DNA from: Panulirus ornatus
Lineage: Eukaryota; Arthropoda; Malacostraca; Decapoda; Palinuridae
Length of the DNA: 64,000 bases
Direction of reading: 5' to 3'
NCBI RefSeq assembly: GCF_036320965.1
Contig: NC_092248.1
Span: 20,356,293-20,420,292 of the forward strand
The notes under the pieces were generated by a model. The model saw only the letters and a program-made list of their open reading frames with translations, was not told the origin of the DNA and ran no database searches. Below, piece after piece: positions 57,564-64,000 of this stretch (position 1 is the first letter of the stretch; each line of letters begins with the position of its first letter). A program made the translations under genes and the position numbers.

Positions 57564-57580
57564 TATATATATATATATAT
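57564..57580. repeat. Short (TA)n at 5' junction of L11
   Basis: Eight or so TA units at the 5' truncation point of L11. Confidence 0.9.
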
Positions 57581-58224
57581 CAAGTCAAGTTAATTGGGAG
57601 GTAAGTTTGAATGGAGAAAAACTGGAGGAAGTAAAGTGTTTTAGATATCTGCGAGTGGATCTGGCAGCGGATGGAACCATGGAAGCGGAAGTGGATCATA
57701 GGGTGGGGGAGGGGGCGAAAATCCTGGGAGCCTTGAAGAATGTGAGGAAGTCGACAACATCATCTCCGAAAGCAAAAATGGCTAAGTTTGAAGGAATAGT
57801 GGTTCCAACAATGATGTATGGTTGCGAGGCGTGGGTTATGGATAGAGCTGTGCGCAGCAGGGTGAATGTGCTGGAAATGAGATGTTCGAGGACAATATGT
57901 GGTGTGAGGTGGTTTGATCGAGTAAGTAATGTAAGGGTAAGAGAGATGTGTGGAAATAAAAAGAGCGTGGTTGAGAGAGCAGAAGAGGGTGTTTTGAAAT
58001 GGTTTGGGCACATGGAGAGAATGAGTGAGGAAAGATTGACCAAGAGAATATATGTGTCGGAGGTGGAGGGAACGAGAAGTGGGAGACCAAATTGGAGGTG
58101 GAAAGATGGAGTGAAAAAGATTTTGGGTGATCGGGGACAGAACATGCAGGAGGGTGAAAGGCGGGCAAGGAATAGAGTGAATTGGATCGATGTGGTATAC
58201 CGGGGTCGACGTGCTGTCAATTGA
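57581..58224 (+). pseudogene. L11 C-terminal ORF segment with read-through of the usual stop
   Basis: About 214 LINE codons without interruption, from the thumb block (EVKCFRYLRVDLA) through LYGCEAW-type and WFGHMERM blocks to RSGRPNWRWKDGV and VVYRGRRAVN. The catalytic RT motifs are absent because of 5' truncation, so no enzyme can be made. Confidence 0.75.
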
Positions 58225-58656
58225 TTGAATCAGGGCATGTGAAGCGTCTGGGGTAAACCATGGAAAGTTCTGTGGGGCCTGGATGTGGAAAGGGAGCTTT
58301 GGTTTCGGGCATTCTTGCATGACAGCTAGAGACTGAGTGTGAACGAATGGGGCCTTTGTTGTCTTTTCTTAGCTCCTCCTCGCACACATGAGGGGGGAAC
58401 GGGATGTTATTCCATGTGTGGCGAGGTGGCGATGGGAATGAATAAAGGCAGACAGTGTGAGTTGTGTGCATGGGTATATATGTAGGTGTCTGTGTGTGTA
58501 TATATATGTGTACATTGAGATGTATGGGTATGTATATTTGCGTGTGCGGACGTGTGTATATACATGTGTAAGGGGGTGCTTGGGCCATTTCTTTCGTCTG
58601 TTTCCTTGCGCTACCTCGCAAACGCGGGAGACAGCGACAAAGCAAAATAAATATAA
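57581..58656 (+). mobile_element. RTE-like LINE copy L11 (C-terminal region, long 3' UTR)
   Basis: Starts at SQVNWEVSLNGEKLEEVKC after (TA)n and carries the C-terminal region, a long-form 3' UTR with a decayed internal hairpin (near 58,372-58,395) and the intact terminal hairpin (about 58,609-58,636). The ancestral stop after YRG is changed (TGA to CGA), extending the frame to 58,224. Substitutions such as KNVRKSTTSSPKAKMAK mark it as older than L6, L8 or L10. Confidence 0.85.
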
Positions 58657-58711
58657 ATATATATATATATATATATATATATATATATATATATATATAT
58701 ATATATATATA
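58657..58711. repeat. (TA)n between L11 and PLE-2
   Basis: About 55 bp of TA. Confidence 0.97.
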
Positions 58712-58914
58712 TTTTGGACAATCACGTGTTTACCAAATGGCGTCCTAGCTTCGTCTCTTCGATGTATATCAACTGACTGTTATATTTCTCTATTGTGTCT
58801 CCCCTGATGATGTGATTTTTACACGAAAGTGCACTTGGGAACTTTTCGTGTTTCATTTTCCCCGTGGACTCATATGAATATCTTGATCACGCGCAAAATT
58901 GTGATCCTTTCCGA
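58712..58914 (+). mobile_element. Penelope-like element terminal fragment PLE-2
   Basis: About 200 bp matching the terminal region of PLE-1 in the same order: TTTTGGACAATC, GTCCTAGCTTCGTCTCTTCG, CTCCCCTGATGATGTG, the hammerhead core, TTTCATTTTCCCCGTGGAC and the final GATCAC...GTGATC inverted repeat. Only the 3' non-coding part remains. Both ends abut (TA)n. Confidence 0.75.
58800..58840 (+). ncRNA. Hammerhead ribozyme motif (intact core)
   Basis: Stem I TCCC (58,800-58,803) with GGGA (58,837-58,840); CTGATGA core at 58,804-58,810; one extra T; stem II GTG (58,812-58,814) with CAC (58,822-58,824); GAAA (58,825-58,828); self-complementary stem III AGTGCACT (58,828-58,835); cleavage predicted after T58836 (triplet CUU). 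Stem III has no loop, so folding as a dimer or a very weak monomer is expected. Hammerheads of this minimal type are known in Penelope-like elements; activity here is inferred. Confidence 0.75.
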
Positions 58915-61825: not shown

Positions 61826-63010
61826 AAAAGAAGGCAAATAAGAGGTGGGGTGAGAGAGTATCATTAAATTTTAGGGAGAATAAAAAGATGTTCTGGAAGG
61901 AGGTAAATAAAGTGCGTAAGACAAGGGAGCAAATGGGAACTTCAGTGAAGGGCGCAAATGGGGAGGTGATAACAAGTAGTGGTGAAGTGAGAAGGAGATG
62001 GAGTGAGTATTTTGAAAGTTTGTTGAATGTGTTTGATGATAGAGTGGCAGATATAGGGTGTTTTGGTCGATGTGGTGTGCAGAGTGAAAGGGTTCGGGAA
62101 AATGATTTGGTAAACAGAGAAGAGGTAGTAAAAGCTTTGCGGAAGATGAAAGCCGGCAAAGCAGCAGGTTTGGATGGTATTGCAGTGGAATTTATTAAAA
62201 AAGGGGGTGACTATGTTGTTGACTGGTTGGTAAGGTTATTTAATGTATGTATGACTCATGTGAGGTGCCTCAGGATTTTCGGAATGCGTGCATAGTGCCA
62301 TTGTACAAAGGCAAAGGGGATAAGAGTGAGTGCTCAAATTACAGAGGTATAAGTTTGTTGAGTATTCCTGGGAATTATATGGGAGGGTGTTAATTGAGAG
62401 GGTGAAGGCATGTACAGAGCATCAGATTGGGGAAGAGCAGTGTGGTTTCAGAAGTGGTAGAGGATGTGTGGATCAGGTGTTTGCTTTGAAGAATGTATGT
62501 GAGAAATACTTAGAAAATCAAATGGATTTGTATGTAGCATTTATGGATCTGGAGAAGGCATATGATAGAGTTGATAGAGATGCTCTGTGGAAGGTATTAA
62601 GAATATATGGTGTGGGAGGCAAGTTCTTAGAAGCAGTGAAAAGTTTTTATCGAGGATGTAAGGCATGTGTACGTGTAGGAAGAGAGGAAAGTGATTGGTT
62701 GTCAGTGAATCTAGGTTTGCGGCAGGGGTGTGTGATATCTCCATGGTTGTTTAATTTGTTTATGGATGTGGTTGTTAGGGAGGTAAATGCAAGAGTTTTG
62801 GAAAGAGGGGTAAGTATGAAGTCTGTTGTGGATGAGAGAGCTTGGGAAGTGAATCAGTTGTTGTTCGCTGATGATACAGCGCTGGTGGCTGATTCATGTG
62901 AGAAACTGCAGAAGCTGGTGACTGAGTTTGGTAAAGTGTGTAAAAGAAGAAAGTTAAGAGTAAATGTGAATAAGAGCAAGGTTATTAGGTACAGTAAGGT
63001 TGAGGGTTAA
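61777..63010 (+). pseudogene. L12 reverse transcriptase (frameshifted)
   Basis: Three open stretches cover the RT. 61,777-62,295 holds MFWKEVNKV and GLDGIAVEFIKKGGD, ending at a one-base loss near 62,258. 62,330-63,010 holds QCGFRSGRGCVDQ, motif A FMDLEKAYDR, motif B GLRQGCVISPWLF and motif C LLFADDTALVAD. The frame stops at TAA (63,007-63,009), a change from CAA. The catalytic residues are intact although the frame is not. Confidence 0.8.
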
Positions 63011-63029
63011 GTCAATTGGGTGGTAAAAT

Positions 63030-63636
63030 TTGAATGGAGAAAAACTGGTGGAAGTAAAGTGTTTTAGATATCTGGGAGTGGATCTGGCAGCGGATGGAAC
63101 CATGGAAGCGGAAGTGAATCATAGGGTGGGGGAGGGGGCGAAGATCCTGGGAGCCTTGAAGAATGTTGTGAAAGTCGAGAACATTATCTTGGAAAGCAAA
63201 AATGGGTATGTTTGAAGGAATAGTGGTTCGAACAATGTTGTATGGTTGCGAGGCGTGGGCTATGGATAGAGTTGTGCGTAGGAGGGTGGATGTGCTGGAA
63301 ATGAGAGGTTTGAGGACAATATGTGGTGTGAGGTGGTTTGATCGAGTAAGTAATGTAAGTGTAAGAGAGATGTGTGGAAATAAAAAGAGCGTGGTTGAGA
63401 AAGCAGAAGAGGGTGTTTTGAAATGGTTTGGGCACATGGAGAGAATGAGTGAGGAAAGATTGACCAAGAGGATATATGTGTCGGAGGTGGAGGGAACGAG
63501 GAGAAGTGGGAGACCAAATTGGAGGTGGAAAGATGAAGTGAAAAAGATTTTGTGTGATCGGGGCCTGAACATGCAGGAGGATGAAAGGAGGGCAAGGAAT
63601 AGAGTGAATTGGATCGATGTGGTATACCGGGGTTGA
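63030..63636 (+). pseudogene. L12 C-terminal region (two frames)
   Basis: 63,030-63,215 carries NGEKLVEVKCFRYLGVDLA to KNV; an extra base near 63,165 shifts to 63,202-63,636, which holds FEGIVVRTMLYGCEAW, WFGHMERM, RSGRPNWRWKDEV and the final YRG stop. It matches L6 residues ~385-582. Confidence 0.75.
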
Positions 63637-64000
63637 CGTGCTGTCAGTGGATTGAATCAGGGCATGTGAAGCGTCTGGGCTAAACCGTGGAAAGTTCTGT
63701 GGAGCCTGGATGTGGAAAGGGAGCTGTGGTTCCGGGCATTATTGCATGACAGCTAGAGACTGAGTGTGAATGAATGGGGCCTTTGTTGTCTTTTCCTAGT
63801 GCTACCTCGCAAACATGAGTAAAGGCAGACAGTGTGAATTGTGTGCATGGGTATATATGTATGTGTCTGTGTGTGTATATATATGTGTACATTGAGATGT
63901 ATAGGTATGTATATTTGCGTGTGTGGACGTGTATATATATACATTGTGTATGGGGGTGGGTTGGGTCATTTCTTTCGTCTGTCTCCTTGCGCTACCTCGC
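63637..64000 (+). other. L12 long-form 3' UTR
   Basis: It contains the TGTGGAGCCTGGATGTGG block, a decayed internal hairpin (GTGCTACCTCGC then AAACATGAG, about 63,800), the GTGTACATTGAGATGTATAGG block, and the start of the terminal hairpin (CGCTACCTCGC at 63,990-64,000), cut by the window end. Confidence 0.8.

Follow-up and report, generated by a model that had tools for sequence, protein, structure and literature searches.

Among LINEs, Waldo and Mino target microsatellites, and Dong has a restriction-like endonuclease. Dong targets (TAA)n, and the microsatellites in the 3′-UTRs of lepidopteran RTE elements lie between the target-site duplications and hence arrived with the insertion, according to the available text of PMC2887409. 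In the penaeid shrimp L. vannamei, recently expanded Penelope and RTE-BovB elements are found near long (AT)n, a pattern not found in F. chinensis, and the conclusion given in the available part of that paper is that TEs carry SSRs (PMC7878876). In plants, the SaTar elements of guayule and rice, which are Mutator-like and non-autonomous, form non-nested trains of several elements split by microsatellites, often (TA)n, and the same text (PMC5907723, available portions) reports for maize TAFTA that empty sites are short and that the flanks are long afterwards. MuTAnT inserts into (TA)n, with flanks that average 15 repeats each compared to 9 in empty sites (PMC4486113, available portions); TAFT and Micron are placed in the same TA-inserting class by the citing text. 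The notion that microsatellites serve as "landing pads" for TEs is likewise a published one, as worded in the available text of PMC12477314.

The window, a stretch of 64,000 nucleotides from Panulirus ornatus (NC_092248.1, positions 20,356,293 to 20,420,292), contains a train of retroelements, and our re-analysis confirmed the five TA tracts at 57,564–64,000 and the order LINE, Penelope-like fragment, cS2, LINE, LINE that the preliminary description had given. At the left edge, a first TA tract (57,564–57,580, 17 bp) precedes LINE L11 (57,584–58,642, plus strand), which is 5′-truncated (q2488–3505 of the reference copy, 89% identity) and ends in an A-rich tail. A second tract (58,657–58,712, 56 bp) is followed by the putative Penelope-like fragment PLE-2 (58,713–58,913, plus strand, 201 bp), and a third (58,914–59,068, 155 bp with one interruption) by cS2 (59,078–59,309, plus strand, 232 bp), which has a GAAAGAAA tail. 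Beyond the fourth tract (59,310–59,385, 76 bp) lies L14 (59,385–60,409), a single 5′-inverted LINE in which reversed q2224–2641 (59,385–59,801, minus strand) is joined to q2690–3505 (59,799–60,409, plus strand) and then to a poly-A tail. The fifth tract (60,431–60,512, 82 bp with interruptions) leads to LINE L12 (60,519–64,000, plus strand), which starts at CCCTGGGG and runs past the window edge; part of the TA-like stretch immediately preceding L12 is similar to the 5′ UTR that longer copies of the LINE carry. Element ends had been described as abutting TA directly, and this does not hold for the 3′ ends of the LINEs and cS2, where an A-rich tail (CAAAATAAATATAA, poly-A or GAAAGAAA) intervenes, placing the TA outside the element. 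A second train occupies 49,477–53,259 (minus strand), where a LINE (q102–744 and q751–3505) is split by TA-cS-TA. The train at 57,564–64,000 is typical of this genome.

As in SaTar arrays, to judge from the available text (PMC5907723), unrelated elements flanked by TA form trains in which they rarely interrupt each other, there being two nested cases here. Unlike SaTar elements, which are plant DNA transposons found in part in other microsatellites, the elements here are a LINE, cS and a Penelope-like element, among which 5′-truncated and 5′-inverted copies occur, and of the repeats tested they use TA only; since the LINE and cS are retroelements, we rejected membership in this group of Mutator-like elements with terminal inverted repeats. 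MuTAnT, a DNA transposon with a transposase, shares with these retroelements the insertion into (TA)n (PMC4486113, as available). The preliminary description knew of no equivalent, and in this it must be narrowed, TA landing pads and non-nested trains being known from plant Mutator-like DNA transposons (PMC5907723 and PMC4486113, available portions); our literature search found no report of such TA trains for animal retroelements. The LINEs resemble the lepidopteran RTEs in being tied to simple repeats but differ from them in where the repeat lies (PMC2887409, available text), and, unlike what the available text of the penaeid shrimp paper concludes (PMC7878876), the TA here lies beyond the element boundaries and where copies are truncated, and thus acts as the target. 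If so, the reading that TEs carry SSRs would be reversed or closed into a loop, in which TA landing pads are not spent by insertion. Such a loop would account for the joint rise of retroelements and long (TA)n in SSR-rich genomes, would be an animal, RNA-based counterpart of the plant SaTar arrays, and would offer a palindromic natural target for testing twin priming and RNA switching by LINE machinery. Like Dong, Waldo and Mino, the LINE lands in simple repeats; the motifs of those elements differ, and the endonuclease of Dong is restriction-like whereas that of the LINE here appears APE-like.

The LINE is, from its predicted domains, of the APE type: L12 contains matches both to PF03372 (Exo_endo_phos, E=3.7e-6) and to PF00078 (RVT_1, E=1.3e-33), in two separate, broken frames, and another copy, at window 44,891–46,636, gives a match of 2.3e-32 to protein chains of LINE-1 ORF2. 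Many of the homologues listed are ~950–1,000 aa long, a size that, taken by itself, presumably fits the RTE clade. The insertions have the hallmarks of target-primed reverse transcription, namely variable 5′ truncation, a constant 3′ end with a tail, and 5′ inversions; target-site duplications are unreadable inside (TA)n, and visual inspection of a few insertions outside TA showed no obvious one. A comparison of junctions with control positions, of the kind that had been proposed, gave enrichment on both sides of the LINE. Among LINEs at least 94% like L12, 13 of the 16 5′ ends that are truncated but not inverted had TA, against a control value of 1.03%, as did 13 of 15 3′ ends (control 2.1%), and because the truncation points vary, the 5′ TA cannot derive from the RNA. 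The association weakened to 5/12 5′ ends and 8/12 3′ ends in LINEs 88–94% like L12, and to 1/21 and 4/7, respectively, below 88%, identity to this one copy being a rough proxy for age; we take this for decay, although it could reflect an older, less specific LINE. Two LINEs more than 95% identical (L044 2472–3180 and window 44,371–46,820) lack TA on either side.

The short element cS2 consists of the LINE 5′ end over ~143 bp and a LINE-like 3′ end of ~44 bp, and near-identical copies occur on many contigs. It had been taken for a composite SINE; as a SINE of the Pol III promoter type it is rejected, its head being the LINE 5′ end, and the Rfam matches for window 40,001–64,000 (E ≤ 1) include no tRNA, 7SL or 5S family. 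Of 30 cS2 copies at least 99% identical, the one in the train among them, 27 are flanked on each side by TA of 12 bp or more; 30 of the loci analysed had been selected by similarity to cS2. The other three are L018, with almost no TA, L019, and L023, a 99% copy in plain AT-rich DNA without a TA tract. Full-length cS2 in random stretches has TA on both sides in 9 of 15 cases, compared to 0.26% of random 232-bp intervals. Genome-wide, 16,835 of 26,314 cS-type heads have (TA)5 within 5 bp and 36% fail. These are exact pattern matches and, since gapped patterns list one strand repeatedly, the strand with a single listing per place was used, here the reverse strand.

Penelope-like elements encode a reverse transcriptase with or without a GIY-YIG domain and have a hammerhead ribozyme in the terminal repeat. 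PLE-2, a candidate Penelope-like element, is a 201-bp piece, and other units extend upstream of its 5′ end; only ~5% of units have TA at this position. A possible hammerhead core, CTGATGA...GAAA, can be made out only by eye, and the unit gave no Rfam match to a hammerhead. Of PLE 3′ termini genome-wide (exact matches, counted as for cS but on the forward strand), 3,931 of 5,895 adjoin TA and 33% fail this strict test, and the TA at this end could be the element's own tail. The commonest of the 13 3′ junctions displayed is CCAATATAT. Two units on contig C13 lie 3,784 bases apart, and 2,500 of these bases are LINE, cS or TA in place of a Penelope-like reverse transcriptase.

We also used 20 random 10-kb stretches together with the window, the stretches being 20 of 140 places drawn from 24 contigs known from cS2 matches. 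An element end lay within 20 bp of 58 of 71 TA tracts (2.5 expected), as against 3 of 30 AC/GT and 1 of 22 AG/CT tracts, and we therefore rejected a general targeting of microsatellites. In the random stretches, (TA)6 was present within 60 bp of 73 of 138 element-block ends, compared to 4.2% of random positions. The preference for TA that had been proposed thus stands for the LINE and cS, TA being alone among the dinucleotide repeats tested, and for the Penelope-like element at the 3′ end, the 5′ end being supported at a few loci. The LINE, cS and the Penelope-like element occur mostly inside TA runs, with TA left on each side, and the preference is not absolute. As TA is left on each side, the same spots are struck again and trains grow.

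We consider it probable that an APE LINE carries out target-primed reverse transcription into (TA)n, with cS hitch-hiking, the Penelope-like element sharing the tracts, and the tracts being restored. Specifically, the LINE endonuclease would prefer (TA)n, and target-primed reverse transcription would build the train by inserting both the LINE itself, often 5′-truncated or 5′-inverted, and the LINE-derived hitch-hiker cS, while the Penelope-like element would share these tracts at least via its 3′ end. As (TA)n is self-complementary, insertion would occur in both orientations, and the second target strand might also prime, yielding inverted and head-to-head products. After each insertion TA would flank both sides and return to its usual length, so that the locus would remain a target. 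That the endonuclease is the cause, that twin priming takes place and that cS uses the same machinery are steps we infer.

Insertion was also claimed to restore the TA tracts. Tract length (medians ~55–80 bp) does not fall as trains grow (rho 0.06, p 0.57, and rho 0.05, p 0.61), which indicates that TA is renewed; the source may be insertion itself or regrowth by slippage. The splitting of one ancestral tract is rejected, as the train in the window holds 386 bp of TA compared to 73–80 bp in four free tracts, and there is no shortening. We give an even chance to the explanation that TA is the target, that insertion only splits the tract, and that ordinary microsatellite slippage regrows each half to equilibrium. 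LINE 3′-UTR seeds have expanded without insertion (L050 4999–5111, 113 bp; L002 2313–2388, 76 bp), summed TA has a median of 103.5 bp in the 30 youngest cS2 copies, little above free tracts, and the sums of 139 bp in 15 random-stretch copies and 122 bp in all 32 copies below 99% fit slow regrowth. Growth with age is, however, inconsistent, in that for the 16 older bystander copies the median sum is 103.5 bp as well, and the plant parallels, in their available text, describe expansion together with insertion (PMC5907723 citing TAFTA; PMC4486113). Two nested cases suggest that a short seed is sufficient as target: a clear one at L011, where LINE-B and cS2 inserted at LINE-A's own TATATATAT, a TA seed of ~10 bp, and a weaker one at window 49,477–53,259. 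Longer LINE copies have TA-like 5′-UTR seeds, and many more diverged ones have 3′-UTR seeds as well. It is possible, with a chance somewhat below even, that (TA)n is a self-renewing shared resource, in which each integration yields two full tracts, LINE seeds start new ones, and most genomic (TA)n is both by-product and substrate of the retrotransposition of unrelated retroelements.

These seeds, together with several LINE tails that begin TATAA, are what might be expected if the elements carried or made the TA, through transcript tails or slippage of the reverse transcriptase, without any target preference, as in the readings for lepidopteran RTEs and shrimp TEs. We regard this as unlikely, given that TA adjoins 5′ ends truncated at differing points as well as the outer ends of inverted segments, that an A-rich tail separates the element from the 3′ TA, and that the LINEs at ~95–96%, which have the strongest TA association, lack the 3′-UTR seed region q3183–3376. 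An own-tail origin is accordingly rejected for the LINE and cS, with their varied 5′ truncations and TA beyond A-rich tails, and may hold for the PLE 3′ end; the idea that LINE-carried 3′-UTR seeds drive the current burst is weakened by the same ~95–96% group.

Fragile TA tracts could also break and rejoin, bringing pre-existing elements together, and at least four LINEs stop early at 3′ TA (q744, q1539, q2358 and q3171). This is very unlikely to be the general explanation, since the 3′ ends examined are mostly complete with tails and 5′ ends variable, the polarity of target-primed reverse transcription, since short microhomology to TA, which internal priming predicts, is seen at some of the premature 3′ ends, and since joints without TA are chiefly head-to-head (15 of 22 abutting joints, one duplicate removed). 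Least probable of all is that insertion occurs anywhere and that the copies surviving are mainly those in TA tracts, where they do no harm: a microsatellite could plausibly be such a haven, as argued for MuTAnT in the available text (PMC4486113), but LINE, cS and PLE make up 37.8% of the random sample, so that tolerant non-TA targets should abound, the youngest cS2 copies are already strongly TA-biased (27/30), and elements are rarely found at AC and AG tracts.

On the preferred reading, target-primed insertion into (TA)n, the head-to-head joints suggest twin priming. LINE/cS pairs without TA between them are joined in this way at L032, L042 and L003, where identity to the references on the two sides is 78%/90%, 96%/90% and 94%/91%, respectively; because the two sides differ, a single event is no more than possible for these joints, and least likely for L032. 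Across TA, element pairs were 59 head-tail, 23 head-head and 31 tail-tail (counts that keep L001, a repeat of the window), an orientation that is random.

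The right end (57,564-64,000) of the window, C25:20,356,293-20,420,292 in the genome of what is probably a decapod crustacean, holds a train of elements, namely LINE L11, the 201-bp Penelope-like fragment PLE-2, the 232-bp LINE-derived short element cS2, LINE L14 and LINE L12, parted by five TA tracts, all at the positions reported in a preliminary description. That description placed element ends directly against TA on both sides, which holds only in part: at the 3′ ends of the LINEs and of cS2 an A-rich tail intervenes, and TA lies beyond the tail. L14 is a single LINE with its 5′ part inverted, and the TA-like bases ahead of L12, our reference for LINE identity, partly resemble the LINE's own 5′ UTR, which is present in longer copies at three sampled loci (L031, L045 and L048). 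The 2.65-Gb genome was searched by way of 30 loci around cS2 copies at least 99% identical (one being this train), 20 random stretches of 10 kb drawn only from the 24 contigs of known length (10,000 of 200,000 bases are N), and exact pattern counts for genome-wide figures. TA-linked trains are confirmed and are general across the parts of the genome sampled or counted.

Matches to the LINE, cS or the Penelope-like unit (PLE) make up 37.8% of the random stretches, where (TA)6 lies within 60 bp of 73 of 138 element-block ends versus 4.2% of random positions. Of TA tracts 16 bp or longer, 50 of 54 in the random stretches (22 tracts in a satellite at L041 left out) and 16 of 16 in the window have an element no more than 45 bp away. 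This test is loose because elements are so common; with the satellite included, shuffling 76 tracts left about 28 flanked by elements on both sides and 4 flanked on one side, against 31 and 19 observed. That satellite (L041:8075-9601) is AT-rich, with irregular TATA/AAAT blocks, and differs from the clean (TA)n seen beside elements. More telling than the presence of a nearby element is the position of element ends: in the random stretches and window together, an end lies within 20 bp of 58 of 71 TA tracts (2.5 when shuffled), 3 of 30 AC/GT tracts (0.85) and 1 of 22 AG/CT tracts (0.67). Ends are thus enriched at TA and hardly at the other repeats, which indicates an association with TA and not with microsatellites in general.

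Because a 3′ repeat may be the element's own tail, the 5′ side is decisive on the order of events, and since the 5′ truncation points of LINEs vary, TA found there cannot come from the transcript. Among LINEs at least 94% identical to L12, TA lies within 15 bp of 13 of 16 truncated, non-inverted 5′ ends (control 1.03%) and at 13 of 15 3′ ends (control 2.1%), in support of the earlier proposal that the LINE prefers TA repeats as target. The corresponding counts are 5/12 and 8/12 for copies 88-94% identical, and 1/21 and 4/7 for those below 88%. Full-length cS2 has TA on both sides in 27 of the 30 youngest copies, in all 16 older bystander copies inside targeted loci (a biased set) and in 9 of 15 copies from random stretches. 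Genome-wide, (TA)5 lies no more than 5 bp upstream of 16,835 of 26,314 cS-type heads (64%) and no more than 5 bp downstream of 3,931 of 5,895 PLE 3′ termini (67%), about one third of each failing this strict test. A target preference for (TA)n is well supported. The preference is not absolute, with TA-free young insertions at L023 (a cS2 copy, 99% identical), L044 and window 44,371-46,820.

For the PLE, which was suggested as a possible sharer of this preference, there is genome-wide support at the 3′ termini, though their TA may be the unit's own tail; on the 5′ side a handful of loci have TA at 5′ ends other than that of the window's copy. At the truncation point of the window's PLE, TA occurs in roughly 5% of units (131 versus 2,747 reverse-strand matches, a rough figure as the patterns differ in length and one base). 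The unit is a putative Penelope-like element. Some such units begin with a short inverted self-copy, head to head (L002:1208-1420; C69:12,108,422; C26:7,635,934).

LINEs themselves carry short TA-like seeds: longer copies have them in the 5′ UTR, and L12, like many of the more diverged copies, has them in the 3′ UTR. The pre-insertion site is known at L011, where a second LINE and a cS2 interrupt a LINE at that LINE's own TATATATAT; TA beside the insert measures 33 and 36 bp to its left and about 10 bp to its right. Within the window, TA of 86 and 87 bp now adjoins a cS that sits inside a LINE at a GATATACTTAAGTATACG site. These nested cases indicate that a short seed can serve as a target, unless it had already grown before insertion. 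Seeds of the 3′ UTR are unnecessary for the current burst, since a group of LINEs about 95-96% identical (L031-L050 and the window, for example window 1-514 and 48,019-49,395) lacks some 194 bp of 3′ UTR (q3183-3376 of the reference copy), the part that holds TA/TG seeds and is present in L12 and many more diverged copies.

If insertions merely split one ancestral tract, short tracts would be expected in long trains. Such splitting is contradicted by tract length being unrelated to the number of tracts per train, both in the random stretches and window (rho 0.065, p 0.57; 34 trains) and at 29 targeted loci (rho 0.05, p 0.61; 37 trains). Renewal of TA, as first proposed, is supported by the same result, and may come from the insertion itself or from later slippage. 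TA in the window's train totals 386 bp, compared with 73-80 bp for four tracts free of elements. Evidence for tract growth with age is mixed, the median summed TA around cS2 being 103.5 bp for the 30 youngest copies, 103.5 bp for the 16 bystanders and 139 bp for the 15 random-stretch copies. Slippage is enough for the growth of 3′-UTR seeds in two LINE copies, where they reached 113 bp (L050) and 76 bp (L002) without insertion.

Neighbours separated by TA are randomly oriented (59 head-tail, 23 head-head and 31 tail-tail, including L001, a repeat of the window), as expected of a self-complementary target. Among neighbours abutting without TA, 15 of 22 are head-to-head (one duplicate removed) versus one quarter expected. 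Several of these joints look like 5′ inversions within one LINE (L048, L050, window 42,553 and window 59,799); other TA-free joints link different elements, such as cS and a truncated LINE, with TA at one outer end (223 bp at L032, 92 bp at L042, 40 bp at L003). We infer a form of twin priming, the second TA end being used as primer on another RNA, so that cS would be copied by the LINE machinery. The two sides of these joints are unequal in identity to their references (78 and 90% at L032, 96 and 90% at L042, 94 and 91% at L003), so each joint may or may not stem from a single event. LINE 3′ ends are premature at TA in at least four copies (q744, q1539, q2358 and q3171), some at points where short microhomology is seen (GATGATA and TTTAAAA, for example), consistent with a TA end priming internally. 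At L038:1713-2536, LINE q1881-2358 and LINE q2284-3505 flank TA-cS2-TA in the same orientation with about 75 bp in common, representing either two LINE copies or one long duplication.

Published work describes related systems. In plants, the Mutator-like SaTar elements line up as non-nested trains within microsatellites, often (TA)n, and maize TAFTA, as cited there, has empty sites of 6-8 bp TA and later up to (TA)50 per side (PMC5907723). Occupied MuTAnT sites carry more TA than empty ones (PMC4486113), and a review uses the term "landing pads" for TEs of microsatellites (PMC12477314). In L. vannamei, recent Penelope and RTE-BovB copies are tied to long (AT)n, in F. chinensis they are not, and the study regards TEs as SSR carriers (PMC7878876); lepidopteran RTEs bring in SSRs between target-site duplications (PMC2887409), and BovB-type LINEs favour a T-stretch followed by TA (PMC13295347). 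The word microsatellite is absent from the accessible text of a decapod repeat survey (PMC10454600). Among the matches listed from open-licence PMC, we found no report of an animal LINE, a LINE-derived short element and a Penelope-like unit sharing TA repeats, which is weak evidence that no earlier one exists.

The window also contains a 7.5-kb array (14,095-21,624) in which a 78-bp unit recurs about 97 times, and where three overlapping reading frames on the minus strand stay open for more than 2,500 aa; the array is likely a minisatellite with a period that is a multiple of three. Further long arrays have units of 53 bp (7,712-9,363), 27 bp (32,352-33,649) and 21 bp (33,813-34,650).
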